A stretch of DNA of 64,000 bases, taken from assembly GCA_035539175.1 (NCBI GenBank), contig DATLIY010000008.1, positions 496,001 through 560,000 of the forward strand. Direction: 5' to 3'. The translations under genes were made by a program, and so were the position numbers. The notes below the pieces were generated by a model. It was not told the DNA's origin, did not search any database, and worked only from the letters and a program-made list of their open reading frames with translations. This DNA comes from Acidisarcina sp. Lineage in GTDB: Bacteria > Acidobacteriota > Terriglobia > Terriglobales > Acidobacteriaceae. This document shows positions 1 to 9,223 of this stretch, one piece after another. Position 1 is the stretch's first letter, and each line of letters starts with the position of its first letter.

Positions 1-2
1 GC

Positions 3-281
3 AACACCCTGGGAATCGCGCTCGCGGTCATGCTGCTGGCCTTTCTAATGATGATCAGCCGCCGCATGGCAGTGACGCAGGTGATCGGGTTTCTTGCCAT
101 GGAGAATGGTCTGTTCTTTGCGGCGACAAGCGCCACCTATGGCATGCCAATGGTCATCGAGTTGGGCATCGCGCTCGACGTTCTGGTTGGCGTATTTATT
201 CTCGGCATTTTCTTCTTCCAGATCAGAGAGCAATTCGAGAGCCTCGATCTCAGCAACCTGGAAGCACTCAGGGAGGATTGA
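3..281 (+). CDS. HyfE-like hydrogenase-4 membrane subunit, 3' end only
   Basis: The reading frame is open from the left edge, so the gene starts outside the window; 92 codons are present. The visible part is two or three hydrophobic segments followed by a short polar tail (ends LEALRED), as expected for the C-terminus of HyfE, a small NuoK-like antiporter-type subunit of hydrogenase-4 and related membrane complexes. It stops one base before the GTG of the HyfF-like gene, so the two are translationally coupled. The family call leans heavily on the neighbours HyfF, HyfG and HyfI; the fragment alone is too short for a firm assignment. Confidence 0.7.
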   Translation, partial: NTLGIALAVMLLAFLMMISRRMAVTQVIGFLAMENGLFFAATSATYGMPMVIELGIALDVLVGVFILGIFFFQIREQFESLDLSNLEALRED

Positions 282-282
282 A

Positions 283-1734
283 GTGGAATTGCTTCTGGTA
301 TTAGGTTTGCCGGTATTGGGCGCGCTCCTGCTGGCCTTCTTCGGAGCGCGACGCTTTGCCGCGGACCTCAACGCCGGCATCAGCTTTGCCACCATGCTCG
401 CCGCCGCGTTTCTTGTGTTGCGTGTGATTCGTTACGGCACCATGTTGGCTGGCCATGAGCAGTTCCTGGTCGATTCGTTCAATGTGTTCCTGGTGGCGCT
501 CACGGCCTTTGTAGGGTTTACCACTGCACTCTTCTCCCGGCCTTACATGCGCATCGAGGAGGAGCACGGACGCCTGACCCCACGGCGGCTGCGTCTCTAT
601 CACAGCATGTACCAGCTCTTTATGGCTGCCATGCTGCTCGCGCTGATCACCAACAACATGGGGCTGCTGTGGGTGGCGATGGAGGCTGCAACGCTATCGA
701 CGGTGCTGCTGGTTTCTCTCTACCGCACGCGCGCCAGCCTGGAAGCAGCGTGGAAGTACTTCATCCTGTGCGGCGTTGGAATTGCGCAGGCTTTATTTGG
801 CACCATGCTGTTGTACTTTGCCGCGGAGCAGACGCTGGGACGCGAAGGAATGACCGCTTTGCTCTGGACTCACCTGAATGCCGTGAAGGGACAACTTGAG
901 CCACGGGTGTTGGGACTCGCATTTGTCTTTCTTCTGGTCGGCTACGGTACAAAAGTCGGGCTGGCGCCGCTGCATAACTGGCTGCCGGATGCGCATGCCG
1001 AGGGACCGACGCCAGTCTCCGCCGTACTCTCCGGGCTGCTGCTGAATGTGGCGCTCTACGCAGTGATTCGCTGCAAGGTTCTGGTTGAAGGCTCCATCGG
1101 CTCCTGGCTTCCGAGTCACATGCTGATGGGCTTCGGACTGCTCTCCGCGGTGCTTGGCGCCTTTTTCCTGTGGAGACAGCAGGACATCAAGAGACTCTTC
1201 GGTTATTCGTCGATCGAGCACATGGGCATCATCACGTTTGCCTTCGGGCTAGGCGGCCCGGTTGCCAACTTTGCCGCGCTGCTGCACATGACGGTGCATT
1301 CGCTCACAAAGTCGTCGATCTTTTTTGCCGCAGGGCATGCTTCGCAAACGGCAGGCACGCAGCGCATGGATGGGATTCGCGGGCTGGTTGGCATCAGTCC
1401 CACCATCGGCTGGGGGCTGATGCTGGGCTCGCTCGCAATTCTCGGGATGCCACCGTTTGGGGTGTTTGCCAGCGAGTTCCTGATTCTGACAACTGCCATG
1501 CGCGAGCATCCCTGGTCGACTCCCTTTCTGCTGGTCGCGCTCGGCGTGGCCTTTGCCGGTATCTTCCGGCGAGTTCAGCCAATGGTATTTGGCGAGAGCG
1601 ACGCTCAGCCTTTACCGCATTCGCCGGCGCTGGTGCCGGTCTTTGCCCATCTCGCAATGGTGCTTGTCCTGGGGGTGTATATGCCTCCTGCGCTCGCAGC
1701 GTGGTTCCGCGCCGCCGCCAGGTTGATCGGATGA
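283..1734 (+). CDS. HyfF-like proton-translocating membrane subunit
   Basis: This 483-residue polytopic protein belongs to the NuoL/M/N (Mrp antiporter) family. Typical segments are visible: TKVGLAPLHNWLPDAHAEGP (the lysine/histidine helix of the antiporter family), TPVSAVLSGLLLNVALY, YSSIEHMG and ILGMPPFGVFASEF. Length and ending agree with HyfF of hydrogenase-4 rather than the longer NuoL, since the lateral helix is missing. It should form part of the membrane arm that pumps or exchanges protons or sodium. The start is GTG at 283, directly after the HyfE stop; an earlier ATG in frame would overlap HyfE by almost 190 bases. Its TGA overlaps the next ATG by one base. Confidence 0.88.
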   Translation: MELLLVLGLPVLGALLLAFFGARRFAADLNAGISFATMLAAAFLVLRVIRYGTMLAGHEQFLVDSFNVFLVALTAFVGFTTALFSRPYMRIEEEHGRLTPRRLRLYHSMYQLFMAAMLLALITNNMGLLWVAMEAATLSTVLLVSLYRTRASLEAAWKYFILCGVGIAQALFGTMLLYFAAEQTLGREGMTALLWTHLNAVKGQLEPRVLGLAFVFLLVGYGTKVGLAPLHNWLPDAHAEGPTPVSAVLSGLLLNVALYAVIRCKVLVEGSIGSWLPSHMLMGFGLLSAVLGAFFLWRQQDIKRLFGYSSIEHMGIITFAFGLGGPVANFAALLHMTVHSLTKSSIFFAAGHASQTAGTQRMDGIRGLVGISPTIGWGLMLGSLAILGMPPFGVFASEFLILTTAMREHPWSTPFLLVALGVAFAGIFRRVQPMVFGESDAQPLPHSPALVPVFAHLAMVLVLGVYMPPALAAWFRAAARLIG

Positions 1735-3287
1735 TGCATATGTGGCCAGAGTTCCTCAAAGATCGACGCATCCCGCTGGCGGCCAATCTCCCCGCGCGCC
1801 GCATCAGCGTAGACAACAGCCAGCAATGGCTGGACGCGGCACGCGTGCTGCGAGCCTCCGAGGCGCAACTGCTGACGATGTGGGGGGCGGACGATCGGGA
1901 CCGCGACGGCTGCTTTCGCATCTACTCCGCCTATCTGCTGCCGCATGATCTGCTGGTGGTGGAGCACGTCATCGAAGAGACTTCCACTCCGGCCTATCCC
2001 AGCCTGGCAACTCTGTTCCCCGCGGCAGAGCGGATGCAGCGCGGCATCCACGACCTGCTCGGCTTCGCAACCGATGACCCGGATACACGAAACTGGCTGC
2101 GTCACGGTGGCTGGCCGGAGTCCCTGTTCCCGCTGCGGCGCGACGTGGATGCCGAGCAGTATCCCGTCGTCTCCGAACCGTATCCCTTTGTGCTGGTCGA
2201 GGGAGATGGCGTGCATGAAATCGCTGTGGGACCAGTCCACGCCGGTACTATCGAACCTGGCCATTTCCGCTTCTCCGTCGTGGGGGAGAAGGTTCTGCGG
2301 CTTGAGGAACGTCTCGGCTACACCCACAAGGGAGTGGCAAAGCGCTTCGAAGGCCTCTCGCAAACGAGCGGCCATCAACTGGCGGCGCGTCTCTCCGGTG
2401 ATTCTGCAGTGGCCTTCTCGTGGGCCTATTGCGCGGCGCTGGAGTCGATCGCCGAGATCCGTTGCTCCGCCCGGGCACTCACACTGCGAGCCCTTGCACT
2501 GGAGCATGAGCGCATCGCAAATCATCTTGGAGACCTCGGGGCACTCGGCAACGACGCCGGCTTCGCCTTTGGGCTCACCCAGTTCTCCCGCCTGAAAGAG
2601 GATCTGCTGCGAACGAACGTCCGCGTCTTTGGAGCGCGCTATCTCTTCGATTTCGTAGTACCGGGCGGAGTGGCCGTTGATCTGCCCGAGGATGGATATG
2701 GATTGCTGGTGGATTTCTACTTCACCTTGCAACATGCGGTCGCGGAGTTGCGCACCATCTATGACGAGCACGACGGCCTGCAGGATCGCTTTCGCGAGAG
2801 CGGACGGTTAGAGCAAAGCGTGGCGCAAAAACTTGGCGCGACAGGACTGGTAGGCAGGGCCTCCGGGATTGCTCAGGATCTGCGCGTCGATCACCCCTTC
2901 GCGCCCTACGATCAACTGGAACCGAATCTGATTGTGCAGCCGAAAGGCGATGTCGCGGCGCGCGTCCAGGTGCGCTTCGATGAGGTCTTTGAATCGATCC
3001 GGCTATGCCATGCGCTGCTGCGGGAGGTGCCCTCCGGCCCCATCCAGCAGACCTTTGCCCCGGCAGCGGCGGGGCGTCTGGGCATCGGCCTGATCGAAGG
3101 ATGGCGGGGGCCGGTGATGATTGCTCTCGAAGCTGGAGCAGAGGGTACAATCCGCCGATGCCATGCTCATGATCCTTCGTGGCAGAACTGGCCCTTGCTC
3201 GAGTACGCAATCCTCGACAACATCGTCCCGGATTTCCCGCTGATCAACAAATCATTCAACTTGTCCTATAGCGGACAGGACGGGTGA
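1734..3287 (+). CDS. HyfG-like hydrogenase large-subunit homologue lacking NiFe ligands
   Basis: This 517-residue protein has an N-terminal NuoC/30-kDa-like part (about residues 1-150) and a NuoD/hydrogenase-large-subunit part (about 165-517), with segments such as EERLGYTHKGVAKRFEGLS and EHERIANHLGDLGALG. In true group 4 hydrogenases the first motif is RxCGxC; here the equivalent residues (about 219-225) read RLSGDSA. The C-terminus reads DFPLINKSFNLSYSG with no DPCxxC motif. All four NiFe-binding cysteines are therefore absent. This matches the energy-converting hydrogenase-related (Ehr) class, which is built like complex I or hydrogenase-4 but is not expected to make or use hydrogen at this subunit. 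Its substrate is unknown. The ATG overlaps the HyfF stop. Confidence 0.85.
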   Translation: MHMWPEFLKDRRIPLAANLPARRISVDNSQQWLDAARVLRASEAQLLTMWGADDRDRDGCFRIYSAYLLPHDLLVVEHVIEETSTPAYPSLATLFPAAERMQRGIHDLLGFATDDPDTRNWLRHGGWPESLFPLRRDVDAEQYPVVSEPYPFVLVEGDGVHEIAVGPVHAGTIEPGHFRFSVVGEKVLRLEERLGYTHKGVAKRFEGLSQTSGHQLAARLSGDSAVAFSWAYCAALESIAEIRCSARALTLRALALEHERIANHLGDLGALGNDAGFAFGLTQFSRLKEDLLRTNVRVFGARYLFDFVVPGGVAVDLPEDGYGLLVDFYFTLQHAVAELRTIYDEHDGLQDRFRESGRLEQSVAQKLGATGLVGRASGIAQDLRVDHPFAPYDQLEPNLIVQPKGDVAARVQVRFDEVFESIRLCHALLREVPSGPIQQTFAPAAAGRLGIGLIEGWRGPVMIALEAGAEGTIRRCHAHDPSWQNWPLLEYAILDNIVPDFPLINKSFNLSYSGQDG

Positions 3288-3294
3288 GGTAAGC

Positions 3295-3807
3295 ATGTTT
3301 GACGTCCTTCTACACATCCTCCGCACGGGCAGGCTAACCGAGCCTCTGCAGGAAAGCGCCGATGCGGCTCCCGTAGTCAGCAGCGTGCAAAAGGATCTCC
3401 TGGCCATTCTGGGGCGTGCCTTGTGCATCCGCCATGTGGACGCCGGATCCTGCAACGGCTGCGAGCTTGAGATTCAGGCGCTGACCAATCCCTACTACAA
3501 CCTGGAAGGCGAGGGGATCCACTTTGTCGCCAGCCCACGGCACGCCGATCTGCTGCTGGTCACCGGCCCCGTCTCCGTCAACATGGAAGAAGCACTGAGG
3601 CGCACATACGATGCCATGCCCGATCCCAAGCTGGTGATGGCTGTGGGCGATTGCGGCGCGTGCGGAGGCATCTTTGGCGCCAGCTATGCCAGCCGCGGAG
3701 GAGTCGCGAGCGTCCTGCCCGTGAACCATACCGTGAGCGGATGCCCGCCCAGCCCGTCTGCGATTCTCACCGGCATTCTGCATACGGTTCGCACCACGCT
3801 GGCGTAG
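3295..3807 (+). CDS. HyfI/NuoB-like iron-sulfur subunit
   Basis: This 170-residue protein belongs to the NuoB/hydrogenase small-subunit family. It keeps the four cysteines for one [4Fe-4S] cluster: CNGC (C53, C56), GDCG (C120) and GCPP (C150). It would pass electrons between the catalytic HyfG-like subunit and the membrane arm. The start ATG is preceded by GAGGTAA, which overlaps the end of the HyfG-like gene, so the four visible genes form one operon. No HycF/HyfH ferredoxin gene follows it, so any such gene must lie upstream of the window. Confidence 0.85.
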   Translation: MFDVLLHILRTGRLTEPLQESADAAPVVSSVQKDLLAILGRALCIRHVDAGSCNGCELEIQALTNPYYNLEGEGIHFVASPRHADLLLVTGPVSVNMEEALRRTYDAMPDPKLVMAVGDCGACGGIFGASYASRGGVASVLPVNHTVSGCPPSPSAILTGILHTVRTTLA

Positions 3808-3832
3808 AGCATGGGTTCCCCGCTCGCAAGTA

Positions 3833-4615
3833 CTAAGCCTCGCGTCGAGTCTCAAGCTGGCGAAGCGTATGCCCAAAACTGATGGCGTGATGCTGATCGA
3901 CGTATCTGCGGTTTCGCGCAAACTGTTCTTCGCTCTGCGACAGGATGCCGCCTTTGCCGGCAAACGCGATCTTGTTCTCTCCATCTTCGGGATCGACGAC
4001 GATCACCTGTTCCGCGAAACTGCGGGAGATCCGGGCGATCAATGTCTTGAAGGGGCAATCGCACAGGTTGACCACCAGGATGCCGTCCGGGGCCAGTGCG
4101 TTGTAGCAATCCTGGTAGAAGCGCTCGCTGCATAACTGGGCAGGCTGCCCGCCAATGTCGAAGCCGTCCACGATGAGCACGTCAAACTCATCCTTGTGTC
4201 GCGCCACAAAGTCCGCTCCGTCCTCGCAGAAGATGGTGAACCTGTGATCGTCGCGCGGGATGTAGAAGTGATCCCGAAGCGCGATGACCTCCGGGCTGAT
4301 CTCGGCAACGCTGATCCGCGTGTGGGGCAGATAACGATGGCAGTATTTCTGGAGGGAGCCTCCGCCCAGGCCAATCATGCCGATGTGCCGGGGCCGCTGC
4401 TTGAAGAGTAGAAACCCCATGATGCTGCGGGTGTAACCCAGCATTAGCTGGTGGGGAACATCCACGTGCATCTTACTTTGCACCGCTCCGATCTCGAACT
4501 GCAGCGTCAATGTGCCGTCGTACTCATGCACAAAGGGCCTTGCGGTGGGGGGCGACATTGAGGAGTCGTCGTACTCGACCGGGGTGGGTTCGGCAGAACT
4601 CAATTCCATGTCCAT
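3833..4615 (-). CDS. Spermidine synthase-like SAM-fold protein
   Basis: The 260-residue protein has a Rossmann fold of the spermidine/spermine synthase family: GLGGGSLQKYC for the first glycine loop, VAEISPEVIALRDHF for the second strand and acidic ligand, FDVLIVDGFD, and LCSERFYQDCYNALAPDGIL. The family motif GGGDG is altered (GLGGGSLQ), so true putrescine aminopropyl transfer is uncertain; many bacterial members have unknown substrates. The gene lies tail-to-tail with the HyfI-like gene (25 bases apart) and head-to-head with the uptake hydrogenase operon, so it splits two energy-metabolism operons. Confidence 0.75.
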   Translation of the reverse strand: MDMELSSAEPTPVEYDDSSMSPPTARPFVHEYDGTLTLQFEIGAVQSKMHVDVPHQLMLGYTRSIMGFLLFKQRPRHIGMIGLGGGSLQKYCHRYLPHTRISVAEISPEVIALRDHFYIPRDDHRFTIFCEDGADFVARHKDEFDVLIVDGFDIGGQPAQLCSERFYQDCYNALAPDGILVVNLCDCPFKTLIARISRSFAEQVIVVDPEDGENKIAFAGKGGILSQSEEQFARNRRYVDQHHAISFGHTLRQLETRREA

Positions 4616-4733
4616 AAATAGGTGTCTTCGGTAGATGTCCTAATAAATGCCTGCGTCTGCGCGGCATGCAACCACTTCGCGAGACAAGCTACTGACCAAA
4701 ACGGTTCTGCAGCACTTCCTCGTTTTACTTTTT

Positions 4734-4749
4734 TGTGATCGTTGTCACA
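4734..4749. promoter_or_regulatory. CRP/FNR-family operator, TGTGA-N6-TCACA
   Basis: The site is a perfect palindrome, TGTGA and TCACA separated by six bases, identical to the Escherichia coli CRP consensus core. It lies 80 bases before the hydrogenase small-subunit ATG and 119 bases before the divergent spermidine-synthase-like start, in the only space between the two genes. The regulator could be any Crp/Fnr-family protein with CRP-like recognition residues; none is encoded in the window. Confidence 0.6.
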
Positions 4750-4828
4750 TACAGGCATTTTCTTCGGGCACACACTTTCTTCCGTCGCTCCAAGTGTATC
4801 TCGGGGTTCTGATAAGGAAAGGCCTCCA

Positions 4829-5977
4829 ATGAGTTCTTCGGAAGAGTCGATTTATGATGCCCTGCTCCAACGCGGGGTTTCCCGCCGCCGTTTTATCGAA
4901 TTCTGCACGGCGATGACAGCAACGCTGGCCATTCCTTCCAGCTATGCGGCGGATATAGCCAAAGCGTTTACTGAGAAGAAGAAGCCCGTCTTAGTCTGGC
5001 TGGAGTTCCAGGACTGCGCAGGAAACACAGAGGCGATTCTGCGCTCTCCGCATCCCGTGGTGGCAGACATCGTGCTCGACGTGCTTTCGTGGGAGTATCA
5101 CGAGACGATCATGGCCGGAGCAGGAAAGGCCGCCGAAGAGGCGCTGGCTCGTGTGGTCCGCGAAGAAAAGGGCAAGTACATCGTCATGGTGGAGGGGGCG
5201 ATCCCGACCGCCGATGACGGTATCTACTGCACCATTGGCGGGCGAACGGCACTGAGCATTGTGCGCGAAGTGTGCGCCGGTGCAGCAGCCACGCTGGCGG
5301 TGGGAGCATGCGCCTGGGATGGCGGCATCGTAGCGGCGGCGCCCAATCCAACGGGAGCCGTGGGCCTGCAGGAGGCGGTGCCAGGCGTAAAGGTCGTCAA
5401 CCTTGGAGGATGCCCGCAGAATCCGGTAAACACCGTTGCGGTGCTGACCCATTACCTGACCTTTGGGGAGCTGCCCGCCCTGGACTCCTACAACCGGCCG
5501 CTCTTCGCCTATGGAAACATCATCCATGACCAGTGCGAGCGCCGGGCGCATTATGATGCGGGACGCTACGTGCAGATTTGGGGAGACGAAGGCCATCGCA
5601 AAGGATGGTGTCTCTACAAGATGGGCTGCAAAGGGCCCGAGGCCACCTATAACTGCCCCACGGTGCGCTATAACGATGCCACGAGCTGGCCGGTTAAGGC
5701 TGGTCATGGCTGCATCGCCTGTGCGTCGCACCGCTTCTGGGATACCCGCTCCCCCTTCTACGAGAGACTTCCCAGTGTGCCGGGATTCGGCGTCGATGTA
5801 CCCGTGGGCAAGATCGGCGCGGCCGTCATCGGTACGGTTGCCGCAGCCACTGCGGTACACGGTGCGATCACGGCGTACCGGCTGCATGGACCGGGTGCGG
5901 CAGCACACGAAGCACGCGAGGCAGACAGGAAAGCCAAAGAGACAGCGGAAGCGAACTCCGCAGACAAGGAAGACTGA
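4829..5977 (+). CDS. hyaA: [NiFe] uptake hydrogenase small subunit
   Basis: The protein has 382 residues. A Tat signal (SRRRFIEFC) lies near the N-terminus and a hydrophobic C-terminal anchor (GKIGAAVIGTVAAATAVHG) follows the catalytic domain, as in membrane-bound group 1 enzymes. Distal-cluster ligands (HDQC, WC, MGC), medial [3Fe-4S] ligands (NC, GHGC, IAC) and two proximal ligands (GACAWDGG, GGCP) are present. At the N-terminal proximal motif, normally CxxC, the sequence reads DCAGNTE, so the second cysteine is Asn. The start at 4829 follows the ribosome-binding site AAGGAAAGG; a start at 4742 would put unrelated residues before the Tat signal. It is the first gene of the hyaABCD-type operon. 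Confidence 0.9.
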   Translation: MSSSEESIYDALLQRGVSRRRFIEFCTAMTATLAIPSSYAADIAKAFTEKKKPVLVWLEFQDCAGNTEAILRSPHPVVADIVLDVLSWEYHETIMAGAGKAAEEALARVVREEKGKYIVMVEGAIPTADDGIYCTIGGRTALSIVREVCAGAAATLAVGACAWDGGIVAAAPNPTGAVGLQEAVPGVKVVNLGGCPQNPVNTVAVLTHYLTFGELPALDSYNRPLFAYGNIIHDQCERRAHYDAGRYVQIWGDEGHRKGWCLYKMGCKGPEATYNCPTVRYNDATSWPVKAGHGCIACASHRFWDTRSPFYERLPSVPGFGVDVPVGKIGAAVIGTVAAATAVHGAITAYRLHGPGAAAHEAREADRKAKETAEANSADKED

Positions 5978-5980
5978 TAT

Positions 5981-7690
5981 ATGGCACGTGTAGTGATTGA
6001 TCCAGTCACCCGAATCGAGGGACACCTGCGGATTGAGGCGGAAACCAACGGCCATGCGGTTACCGACGCATGGAGCTCCGGCACGATGTTTCGCGGCATT
6101 GAGCTGATCCTCCGCAATCGCGATCCGCGCGAGGCCTGGATCTGGGCCCAGCGAATCTGCGGCGTCTGCACCACGGTGCATGCTCTCGCTTCCGTCAGAG
6201 CCGTGGAAGACGCATTAGGCATAGAGGTTCCCGATAACGCCCGCATCATCCGCAACATCATCGCGGGCGCGCAAAACGTGCAGGATCATGTCGTGCACTT
6301 CTACCATCTGCACGCGCTGGACTGGGTGGACGTAACCCTTGCGTTGAAGGCAGATCCGGCGAAGACCTCGGTCATCGCGCAATCCATCTCGGAGTGGCCT
6401 AAGTCGAGCGCCGCCTACTTCAAAGGCGTGCAGGATCGCGTGAAGGCCCTGGTGGCGAGCAAGCAGTTAAGCCTCTTCAGCAGCGGATACTGGGGGCATC
6501 CGGCGTACACCCTGCCCCCGGAGGTCAATCTCCTGGCCGTCGCGCATTATCTTGAGGCGCTGGAATTTCAGCGGGAGTTCATCCGCATCCACGCCGTGCT
6601 GGGCGCCAAGAATCCGCATCTGCAGACCTACCTGGTCGGCGGCATGGCGGCGTCGATGGACAGCAACGAGCCCAATGCCACCATTAATCCCGAGCGCATC
6701 ACGCTGCTGGCAGAGCTGGCAAAGCTGGCGCAGACCTTTGTGCAGCAGGTTTACATCCCGGACGTGCTGGCAATTGCCGGCTACTATCGCGACTGGTTCA
6801 CCCGCGGCGAGGGGCTGGGCAACTTCATGGCCTATGGTTGCTACCCGATGGGCGGCATCCACGAAACCAGCAAATTCTTTATGCCGCGCGGCATCATTCT
6901 CGGGCGGGATCTCTCGACCGTACATCCGCTCGATCCGAAGAACGTGAGCGAGTACGTGTCGCACTCCTGGTATGAGTATGACGGCGGCAACGGCGTCGCC
7001 AAGCATCCGTCGGTCGGCCAGACGACTCCGAAGTACAGCGGGCCAAAGCCGCCATTCGAGCAGCTCGATACGGACCAGAAATATTCCTGGCTCAAGGCTC
7101 CGCGTTACGACGACAAGGCAATGGAGGTGGGTCCGCTGGCGCGCACACTGGTGGCCTATGCCTCCGGCAACGCAATTGTGAAGCAGCATGTTGACGCGGC
7201 TCTGGCGAAGTTGAACGCGCCTCCTTCCGCGCTCTTCTCCACCCTGGGCAGGATTGCGGCACGCGCCATCGAAGCGGAGATCATGGCGGATCAGTTGCCC
7301 CAGTGGATCGCAGAACTCGACGACCACATGGCCCACGGCGATGTGCAGATTCACTCCGGCGAGAAATGGGATCCGGAAAGCTGGCCAAAGCAGGCTCAGG
7401 GAGCGGGCTTCCATGAGGCACCCCGCGGCGCGCTGGGTCACTGGATCGAGATCGAGAACAAGGTCATCAAGAATTACCAGGCCGTGGTTCCCTCTACGTG
7501 GAATGCGGGGCCGCGGGATGCGCACGGGCAGAAGGGCGCCTACGAGGCTTCGCTCGCAGGAACGCCGCTGGCAGACCCGGCGCGTCCGGTCGAGATTCTG
7601 CGCACGATTCACTCCTTCGATCCGTGCCTGGCCTGTGCCGTGCATGTGGTCGATGCCAATGGGCGTGAATTCGAGTACGAAAAGCTCTGA
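5981..7690 (+). CDS. hyaB: [NiFe] uptake hydrogenase large subunit
   Basis: This 569-residue catalytic subunit oxidises H2 at the Ni-Fe centre. It has the N-terminal motif RICGVC (C60, C63) and the C-terminal motif DPCLACAVH (C549, C552, His555), with DPVTRIEGH at the N-terminus. The 14 residues after His555 are the extension expected to be cut off by the maturation protease once nickel is inserted. The gene starts three bases after the small-subunit stop. Length, Tat-dependent partner and b-type cytochrome place it in group 1 (respiratory uptake); I cannot fix the subgroup by eye. No hyp maturation genes occur in the window, so they must be encoded elsewhere. Confidence 0.95.
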   Translation: MARVVIDPVTRIEGHLRIEAETNGHAVTDAWSSGTMFRGIELILRNRDPREAWIWAQRICGVCTTVHALASVRAVEDALGIEVPDNARIIRNIIAGAQNVQDHVVHFYHLHALDWVDVTLALKADPAKTSVIAQSISEWPKSSAAYFKGVQDRVKALVASKQLSLFSSGYWGHPAYTLPPEVNLLAVAHYLEALEFQREFIRIHAVLGAKNPHLQTYLVGGMAASMDSNEPNATINPERITLLAELAKLAQTFVQQVYIPDVLAIAGYYRDWFTRGEGLGNFMAYGCYPMGGIHETSKFFMPRGIILGRDLSTVHPLDPKNVSEYVSHSWYEYDGGNGVAKHPSVGQTTPKYSGPKPPFEQLDTDQKYSWLKAPRYDDKAMEVGPLARTLVAYASGNAIVKQHVDAALAKLNAPPSALFSTLGRIAARAIEAEIMADQLPQWIAELDDHMAHGDVQIHSGEKWDPESWPKQAQGAGFHEAPRGALGHWIEIENKVIKNYQAVVPSTWNAGPRDAHGQKGAYEASLAGTPLADPARPVEILRTIHSFDPCLACAVHVVDANGREFEYEKL

Positions 7691-7707
7691 ACCGAGCGGA
7701 GGAAGTC

Positions 7708-8493
7708 ATGCAGCAGGCAGCAGTCCCGCTTAGCACTGGGAATCACAATTCCGACCATGAGGTCGTGCGTATCTACGTATGGGAGTTACCGGTGCGTCTG
7801 GCGCACTGGGGATTCGTCTGCTCCCTCATCGTTCTCGCCTGCACGGGCTACTACATGCACAACCCTTTCGTCGCCGTGCATTCCCGCACGGCGTGGGTGA
7901 TGGCAACCATTCGGTACGTCCATGTGCTCAGCGGCTGGGTGCTGCTGGCCTCGCTCCTTGTTCGCCTCTATTGGCTGTTCAAGGGAAACATCTGGGCCAA
8001 CTGGCGGGCCTTCATTCCGTTGACCGCACGCCAGCGGAAGAGTCTGCGCGGAGCCTTCCAGTACTACACGTTTCAGCGTGGCGAGCCCTTTCCCCAGATC
8101 GGACATAACACGCTGGCAGCGCTTACTTACCTCGTGGTTTTCGCAATCCTCGGCTGGGAGTGCCTGACGGGGGTCGTGCTCTACAGCGAAGTTCTGGGCA
8201 AGGGCATGCTGTACTCCCTGGTCGGTTGGATCCCTCGAATCATCGACATCCAGACCCTGCGCATGACGCACTACCTCTTCATGTTTCTTCTGATTGGTTT
8301 TGGAATCCATCACGTCTACAGCGCCATTCTGGTAGCACGCGAGGAGCGCAATGCGCTGATGGAGAGCATCTACACCGGCTATAAATTTGCCCCGGAGTCG
8401 CTGCTGGACGAAGAGATCGATGCCGCCTTATATGGCGGGGATTCGTCCGAAGCTGCGCATGCGGCCGTTGCCAACGCAGCGAAGGTACATTGA
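7708..8493 (+). CDS. hyaC: Hydrogenase b-type cytochrome subunit
   Basis: This 261-residue HyaC/HupC-family protein has four hydrophobic helices. Candidate haem histidines are seen in PVRLAHWGF, RYVHVLSGW, MTHYLF and IHHVYSA. It anchors the hydrogenase dimer to the membrane and passes electrons to the quinone pool. The ATG follows a strong GGAGGAA site 17 bases after hyaB. The last codons lie inside the first copy of a 17-bp tandem duplication that also carries the start region of the next gene. Confidence 0.92.
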   Translation: MQQAAVPLSTGNHNSDHEVVRIYVWELPVRLAHWGFVCSLIVLACTGYYMHNPFVAVHSRTAWVMATIRYVHVLSGWVLLASLLVRLYWLFKGNIWANWRAFIPLTARQRKSLRGAFQYYTFQRGEPFPQIGHNTLAALTYLVVFAILGWECLTGVVLYSEVLGKGMLYSLVGWIPRIIDIQTLRMTHYLFMFLLIGFGIHHVYSAILVAREERNALMESIYTGYKFAPESLLDEEIDAALYGGDSSEAAHAAVANAAKVH

Positions 8494-8511
8494 AAGCGAA
8501 GGTACATTGAA
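8478..8511 (+). repeat. 17-bp perfect tandem duplication at the cytochrome/protease junction
   Basis: The unit AGCGAAGGTACATTGAA occurs twice in a row (8478-8494 and 8495-8511). The first copy supplies the TGA stop of the cytochrome gene; the second supplies the GAAGG site and TTG start of the protease gene. Removing one copy would leave TTG and TGA overlapping as TTGA, a usual coupled junction, so the duplication turned an overlap into a 13-base gap. Confidence 0.9.
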
Positions 8512-9028
8512 TCCGATAAACTTGGCGTCGCAGAACGTAGTCGTCCTCGCGCTCGGCAACCTTATGCGCACCGACGATGCCGCCGGCATGCTCGCCTTAA
8601 CCCGCCTGGCTGGCGACGAGCGCCTGCCCGCTGGAGTTCGCCTGGTAGAAGGCGGAACACTGGGACTGGAGTTACTCTACCAGGTGGAGCACGCCTCGCT
8701 GCTGCTGGTGTTGGATGCTGTGGATGCAAAGGAGCCTCCGGGCACCCTGATGCTGTTCCGAGGAGAGGCGGTCGAGGCGCTGCCCTGCGGCCAAAGCATC
8801 CATCTACTGGGGATGGCTGATCTTTTGAGCGCTCTGCGCCTGACCGAACGGGCTCCAAGCGAGGTAGTTCTGATCGGGATTCAGCCGGAATCTACCGGCT
8901 GGGGTACCCAGTTGACGCCAACCGTGGAGGCTTCCCTGCCCCGCCTGATCGAGGCCGCCCTCGACCAGATCGCCGCCTGGCAATCGCGCACCGCCGACGC
9001 GCTCGCTTCGGCGGAAGCCTGTTCCTGA
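8507..9028 (+). CDS. hyaD: Hydrogenase maturation protease (HyaD/HupD family)
   Basis: This 173-residue nickel-dependent endopeptidase removes the C-terminal extension of the large subunit. It shows the family pattern ALGNLMRTDDAAG, the acidic metal ligand in VLDAVDA and the histidine in SIHLLGMADLL. The start TTG at 8507 is chosen because it is the only start with a ribosome-binding site (GCGAAGG) close to the first strand and because it sits in the second copy of the 17-bp duplication. A start further upstream would lie inside the cytochrome gene. Confidence 0.88.
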   Translation: MNPINLASQNVVVLALGNLMRTDDAAGMLALTRLAGDERLPAGVRLVEGGTLGLELLYQVEHASLLLVLDAVDAKEPPGTLMLFRGEAVEALPCGQSIHLLGMADLLSALRLTERAPSEVVLIGIQPESTGWGTQLTPTVEASLPRLIEAALDQIAAWQSRTADALASAEACS

Positions 9029-9050
9029 TCCAGCAAACCGGTTATCTCCG

Positions 9051-9080
9051 TTGCATAGTAAATAGCCTCGCCTCTATCCT
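9051..9080 (+). promoter_or_regulatory. Possible sigma-70-type promoter before the Wzz-like gene
   Basis: TTGCAT (9051-9056) and TATCCT (9075-9080) are 18 bases apart, in the 195-base gap between the hydrogenase operon and the chain-length gene. Both boxes are imperfect, and the match rests on spacing and position only. Confidence 0.3.
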
Positions 9081-9223
9081 GCAGGAGCGCTGGGTTAAAC
9101 TACGGGTGGGTCCTGGATCGGGTACTTGCACCATATTGAAATGGACCAGCACCTTTTCATCCCTATTGGGCCAAAAGAGGTTTGCTTTTCCGCTCAACGC
9201 ACTTAAGAATTGAAGAAACCACC

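Follow-up and report, generated by a model that had tools for sequence, protein, structure and literature searches.

A six-gene hydrogenase-related (Ehr) operon that lacks the NiFe-site cysteines, next to a group 1 hydrogenase in an Acidisarcina genome

The DNA described here, called the window throughout, is a stretch of 64,000 nucleotides (G000:C8:496001-560000) from an Acidisarcina sp. genome of 3.9 Mb with a completeness of 99.96%; coordinates refer to the window unless a locus id such as L004 is given. Positions 3-3807 are the 3' end of a six-gene operon, ehrABCDLS, for an energy-converting hydrogenase-related (Ehr) complex. The genes ehrA, ehrB and ehrC start upstream of the window, in L004, where the order is an ArsR/SmtB-type gene, a 60-residue frame (L004 8150-8332), ehrA, ehrB, ehrC, ehrD, ehrL and ehrS. 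Membrane subunits of the antiporter-like, NuoH-like and HyfE-like types share one operon with ehrL and ehrS. Pfam gave no match for the HyfE-like EhrC, whose assignment comes from alignment alone. A preliminary description of the same DNA had listed HyfE as intact; the subunit is present, with only its last 92 codons inside the window. The genes of a group 1 hydrogenase follow downstream (Table 1).

EhrL matches the Escherichia coli large subunit HycE (E=3.8e-57) and differs from it at the nickel-iron (NiFe) site. The first motif reads RLSGDSA where HycE has RVCGICG, and the C-terminus is NKSFNLSYSGQDG where HycE has IGSLDPCYSCTDR followed by a tail. EhrL stops where hydrogenases run on into the maturation tail, and the extension for the maturation peptidase is absent. 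Alignment with E. coli HycE and HyfG places Ser, Ser, Ser and Gly where the four NiFe cysteines are expected, and the whole EhrL sequence lacks a CxxC pair. The alignments, which also covered NuoCD, agree with the preliminary description, which had read RLSGDSA and a terminal NLSYSG without DPCxxC and had proposed that the ligand cysteines were gone. Ser-Ser-Ser-Gly is found at these positions in 76 of 116 Ehr rows; none of the 116 carries more than one Cys there, and six carry exactly one, at the first position. The replacement motifs are near-invariant over several phyla: Gly and Asp of the first (SGD-S) occur in 114 and 113 of the 116 rows, and Asn, Lys, Ser and Tyr of the second (NKSFNLSYSG) in 112, 112, 114 and 112. 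The predicted EhrL model (mean model confidence, pLDDT, 87.6) fits HycE best (TM-score 0.92; Z 47.3, root-mean-square deviation (rmsd) 2.1, 508 residues), followed by complex I subunits of the NuoD fold (Z 43-44 over ~355 residues). The ratio of nonsynonymous to synonymous substitution rates (dN/dS) between relatives was 0.07-0.22 for EhrL in 12/12 pairs, 0.018-0.139 for EhrD and 0.048-0.19 for EhrS in 11/12 pairs, the outlier (0.54) having an over-long reading frame; frames were taken mechanically, and some pairs include upstream overlap.

EhrS retains all four Cys of the proximal [4Fe-4S] cluster (CNGC, GDC and GCPP). When aligned with NuoL, EhrA and EhrD retain the Glu and Lys of two antiporter half-channels, residues to which we assign the roles assumed for antiporter-like subunits in general. 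The intact cluster ligands agree with the preliminary description, and the alignments and motif rows uphold its overall picture: a complex of the Ehr type that has lost the NiFe ligands but not the pump arm. The loop of EhrB reads TTHLEL where HyfC and NuoH have EAEQEL. A ferredoxin domain is missing from all 84 readable EhrS proteins of the window's lineage (87 loci), in which the first cluster Cys is preceded by a median of 51 residues; in a second Ehr lineage of the class, 21 of 24 readable EhrS proteins (27 loci) have an N-terminal stretch of ~145-161 residues with CxxCxxC. No CxxCxxCxxxC reading frame was found in L004 7700-16001 or in window 1-9100. If the complex of the window is redox-driven at all, its single evident cluster would have to be supplied with electrons by an external donor.

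Table 1. Features of the Ehr operon and of the adjoining genes, in window coordinates.
Feature	Position	Strand	Description
ehrA	upstream of window (L004)		HyfB-like
ehrB	upstream of window (L004)		HyfC/NuoH-like
ehrC, 3' part, 92 codons	3..281	+	HyfE-like; whole gene G000:C8:495616-496281
ehrD	283..1734	+	HyfF-like antiporter subunit, 483 aa; over the NCBIfam cut-off for hydrogenase 4 subunit F
ehrL	1734..3287	+	HyfG/HycE-like large subunit, 517 aa; C-terminal extension absent
RLSGDSA (EhrL residues 219-225)	2388..2408	+	in place of NiFe-site RxCGxC(G)
NLSYSG of EhrL	3258..3275	+	in place of DPCxxC
ehrS	3295..3807	+	HyfI/NuoB-like small subunit, 170 aa; four cluster Cys, without ferredoxin domain
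spermidine-synthase-like gene	3833..4615	-	PF01564, GLGGGS loop; recurrent Ehr neighbour
CRP-type palindrome TGTGATCGTTGTCACA	4734..4749	n/a	between spermidine-synthase-like gene and hyaA
hyaA	4829..5977	+	group 1 hydrogenase small subunit, Tat motif; CAGN at proximal-cluster CxxC
hyaB	5981..7690	+	group 1 hydrogenase large subunit; RICGVC and DPCLAC present
hyaC	7708..8493	+	hydrogenase b-type cytochrome
hyaD-like frame	8387..9028	+	presumably a maturation peptidase, named by reading alone, with no family search behind the label; true start inside frame, near 8490

We conclude that the locus is a new example of the known Ehr type. In Geobacter sulfurreducens, GSU0739-45 are described as encoding HyfE- and NuoL-like proteins with large and small subunits (PMC7894505, PMC13194489), and that complex, likened to ours by its published description and not by sequence, also has no NiFe site. 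In Geobacter the complex is more abundant with formate. Rv0081-Rv0087 of Mycobacterium tuberculosis are described as a hypoxia-linked EHR set, not a hydrogenase, with an ArsR-type gene in front (PMC6728331, PMC6177252). There, as in the window, an ArsR-type gene heads Ehr-type subunits, a likeness again taken from description. Presumably the small subunit comes first in the mycobacterial gene order. Compared with E. coli Hyf/Hyc, EhrL aligns with HycE over its full length and counterparts of HyfB, HyfC, HyfE, HyfF, HyfG and HyfI are present, but the NiFe cysteines, the C-terminal extension and counterparts of HyfH, HyfA and HyfD (HyfD judged by gene order) are not. With the complex I core (NuoB, CD, H, L/M/N) the window's Ehr shares the fold of EhrL and EhrS and the membrane subunits; it differs in having neither an NADH module nor NuoI, and the quinone Tyr/His positions are not conserved.

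The survey behind these comparisons covered 299 genomes of the class Terriglobia, from which 40 loci were fetched, and 80 named loci, the best 80 of at least 578 matches. Most Ehr loci hold whole operons. Lineages were grouped by us from EhrL identity: among the matches listed, EhrL of the window's lineage (64-100% identity) occurs in 8/299 class genomes, our own included, and that of the second lineage (~38-43% identity) in 30/299. A quick tree of 122 rows, made up of the loci of this survey with HycE, HyfG and NuoCD (the named Geobacter and Mycobacterium Ehr proteins are not among them), puts the window in a set of 12 with support 100: eight members of the class sample, two loci of Acidobacteriaceae (L109, L110) and two of Pseudomonadota (L111 and L112, the latter from Rhodanobacter lindaniclasticus DSM 17932). 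The set is nested, again with support 100, in an 86-row set of mostly Pseudomonadota and some Nitrospirota, and the second lineage of the class lies elsewhere in the tree. The most economical explanation for this position among mostly pseudomonadotal sequences is lateral transfer from Pseudomonadota, which is probable on these trees. Six of the 40 class loci (L070-L075) fall outside both lineages. Of these, L072-L074 retain all four Cys and are true group 4 hydrogenases, and L075 (G223) encodes a divergent small subunit without the last cluster Cys (PGDPPPP, not GCPP) beside a divergent large subunit. Second-lineage Ehr with two tandem EhrA-like genes was observed at L057, L058, L068 and L069.

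The ArsR/SmtB-type gene ahead of the operon (L004 7756-8091, 111 aa) scores over its NCBIfam cut-off. A homologue is found no more than 1.5 kb from the operon in 6/7 fetched window-lineage class loci, the operon of the seventh (L037) reaching the contig end, in 17/27 second-lineage loci and in 0/6 others; none was found in five control stretches, and only 2/80 named loci have one labelled. Sigma-54 control through the GAF/sigma-54 activator gene at L004 4587-6152 was rejected, there being no -24/-12 site upstream of the operon; of two-mismatch sites, L004 has one, which is intragenic (3.8 expected), and the window seven (11.9 expected). Activator genes of this type stand at 9/40 Terriglobia loci. 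FNR-type control was also rejected, with a single one-mismatch box in the window (1.6 expected), distant from the operon. The low-oxygen lxa locus of Burkholderia was considered as context for Paraburkholderia and dropped; the text of PMC9104464 contains neither 'hydrogenase' nor 'spermidine'.

The function of Ehr is an open question in bioenergetics (PMC6349859, PMC10284858, PMC6728331). We favour, with moderate confidence, the reading that the operon encodes a six-subunit complex that evolved from the hydrogenase-4/formate-hydrogenlyase branch of the complex I superfamily, is maintained by selection and is functionally independent of the adjacent hydrogenase. A soluble cytoplasmic donor would directly reduce the single EhrS cluster, a small molecule held in the emptied EhrL cavity would be reduced or oxidised there, and the reaction would drive transport of H+ or Na+ via EhrA, EhrB and EhrD; the ArsR-type protein may repress the operon until a signal arrives, either low oxygen or a redox or metal cue by analogy with Rv0081. 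Several points weigh against this account. The donor, the small molecule and the ion are all things that we infer; CxxCxxCxxxC frames lie in or near the operon in 12/87 window-lineage loci (not inspected singly); EhrL may hold a quinone site of another type despite the missing Tyr/His; HyaB, the large subunit of the group 1 hydrogenase, is weakly enriched in the second lineage (10/30 genomes among the matches listed, Fisher p 0.02); and the trees behind lateral transfer were made with a quick method. The Ehr question is narrowed by a widespread lineage that has dropped the built-in ferredoxin domain, carries a near-invariant motif in the old active site and is under purifying selection. Useful leads are the loss of that domain across the lineage, the association with an ArsR-type gene and a pair of neighbours that recur beside Ehr: SulP transporters and a spermidine-synthase-like gene.

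It is possible, if unlikely, that the complex is a quinone-reactive pump of the complex I kind, binding quinone in the EhrL cavity and acting as a donor:quinone oxidoreductase. An FDH-Ehr quinone scheme has been proposed for other lineages (PMC6349859). EhrL shares the NuoD fold, and ligands of an N2-like cluster are retained together with a NuoH-like subunit. However, alignment with E. coli NuoCD shows Gly at the position of the quinone Tyr and Ile at that of the second His, taking these two residues, as we assume, to form the quinone head-group site; the TTHLEL loop of EhrB also departs from HyfC and NuoH, and the genome already holds two NuoD-like matches.

The gene between ehrS and hyaA has spermidine-synthase-like homologues within ~1.6 kb of Ehr in 13/80 named loci (L117, L118, L120, L122, L131, L139, L150, L151, L152, L154, L162, L164 and L166), where ~0.13 loci would be expected from 52 matches in 30 whole genomes, chosen for long contigs and including 11 of the 13. 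The 13 loci are not independent, Gallionellaceae and Burkholderiaceae being over-represented. The gene is found upstream or downstream of Ehr and on either strand, and at L162 it sits between two Ehr operons. Besides the window, one of 40 class loci has it near Ehr (L040, a short frame); it occurs in 9/299 class genomes and adjoins Ehr in two. In a further genome, G246, it is on the Ehr contig, ~9 kb from the operon end, and no Ehr of either lineage was found, among the matches listed, in the other six. Against a tight partnership with Ehr, the tree does not separate Ehr-linked from unlinked genes, and 67/80 loci have no such gene nearby; the proposal that the Ehr-linked proteins form one co-evolving clade was rejected, the label needing nine changes on a 40-row tree. 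Unlinked close relatives stand in other contexts, two of them beside a gene for a malic enzyme/phosphotransacetylase fusion. Ehr is often near metG in Betaproteobacteria (10/80 loci have metG near Ehr), and some of the linkage in that group may therefore reflect a gene position passed down by descent. Two side observations concern the same gene. L117 and L118 (Burkholderiaceae) each have three spermidine-synthase-like frames within ~4 kb on either side of one Ehr operon. The 27-kb contig C32 of G246 (L057, L211) bears Ehr, a sigma-54 activator, a gene of the isocitrate/isopropylmalate dehydrogenase family, a malic enzyme/phosphotransacetylase fusion and the spermidine-synthase-like gene.

The predicted model of this neighbour protein (mean pLDDT 87.7) has the spermidine synthase fold and also fits the methyltransferase METTL13 (5wcj; TM-score 0.74 by target, rmsd 3.3). 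The protein resembles spermidine synthases and PRK04457 in that fold and in a PF01564 match over cut-off, but it misses the NCBIfam aminopropyltransferase cut-off (210 vs 304 bits) and has GLGGGS, invariant in 19/19 homologues, where spermidine synthases have GGGDG. No PF02675 S-adenosylmethionine (AdoMet) decarboxylase, for which 8/14 control genomes were positive, was found in its own genome, and no further PF01564 protein. Because of the loop, the scores below the NCBIfam cut-offs and the absence of PF02675 and of other PF01564 proteins, we infer that a methyltransferase is more likely than a spermidine synthase. It is quite unlikely, although it would be the first concrete handle on the Ehr substrate if true, that Ehr complexes of this lineage cooperate with the adjacent protein, the latter being a methyltransferase that uses AdoMet to produce or alter the molecule in the EhrL cavity or to modify the complex itself. 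A narrow keyword search found no literature pairing spermidine synthase with Ehr or hydrogenase-4.

Both recurrent neighbours were counted at 71 of the 80 named loci (nine near-duplicates dropped) among genes of 130-899 aa, comparing 181 near genes, at most two places from the operon, with 181 far genes drawn from at least four places away. SulP (PF00916) accounts for 8/181 near and 0/181 far genes (Fisher p 0.007), and spermidine-synthase-like genes for 9/181 and 2/181 (p 0.06; both far hits at L117), the genes being treated as independent in both tests. A Pfam search of the 181 near genes gave seven SulP and nine Spermine_synth matches; neither family was among the matches listed for the 110/181 far genes searched. 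SulP genes within two genes of Ehr were seen at L124, L127, L156, L168, L170, L171 and L187, mostly upstream and on the same strand. This excess is consistent with a complex that is not redox-driven, or that acts together with SulP transporters in the uptake of a solute such as an inorganic anion. We hold that to be decidedly unlikely: SulP is near Ehr at only 7/71 loci and nowhere in the window, and EhrS retains its cluster ligands.

The preliminary description had placed the Ehr complex 1 kb from the hydrogenase and proposed that electrons or quinones fed by the latter might serve the former. The distance from the ehrS stop to the hyaA start is indeed 1,021 bp with one gene between; that gene, on the minus strand, is divergent from hyaA only and is convergent with ehrS. 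One functional unit, in which electrons or quinol from H2 would feed Ehr, would account for the short distance here and for HyaB in 10/30 second-lineage genomes against 52/299 overall. The comparison does not support the proposed link, however. No HyaA/B/C-like frame was found in the fetched DNA of the other 120 Ehr loci (40 class and 80 named; 58/120 had 3 kb or more of flanking sequence on each side). Among the matches listed, HyaB occurs in 2/8 window-lineage genomes, our own included (Fisher p 0.42), which is background, so that the association across the class is largely random despite the second-lineage enrichment. Ehr and HyaB share a contig in none of the 11 other genomes that have both (10 second-lineage, one window-lineage). 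The promoter regions are also unlike, with the ArsR-type gene ahead of ehr and a CRP-type palindrome ahead of hya, and the quinone Tyr/His are missing from EhrL. A single functional unit is therefore very unlikely. Since Ehr adjoins a hydrogenase only here among the genomes compared, the pairing looks accidental, and coincidence in this genome is most likely; physiology should not rest on a single adjacency to a hydrogenase. Hardly credible, finally, is a decaying, functionless hydrogenase, for although the NiFe ligands are lost and Geobacter Ehr has been read as nonfunctional and drifting (PMC13194489), EhrL, EhrD and EhrS of relatives are under purifying selection, the replacement motif is near-invariant across phyla and the operon is whole in most loci.

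The palindrome upstream of hyaA is a perfect match to TGTGA-N6-TCACA. It precedes hyaA in 8/27 class loci, namely the window, L081, L084, L087, L088, L089, L102 and L105; the 1.97 Mb of Ehr loci contain one only, near the operon start of L130, and L004 contains none. The accessory gene hypD is found elsewhere in the genome, on contig C13, near genes that we take, by reading, to be a bidirectional hydrogenase. The hydrogenase had been called functional-looking, and HyaB, with RICGVC and DPCLAC, agrees; HyaA calls for a caveat, having QDCAGN at the expected proximal-cluster CxxC. The Cys-to-Asn change is present in 11/17 readable small subunits from 30 loci (examples are window 4829-5977 and L076-L096), and 6/17 have CxxC. 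To judge from these sequences, CAGN possibly reflects a changed cluster ligand in one acidobacterial lineage of group 1 hydrogenases.

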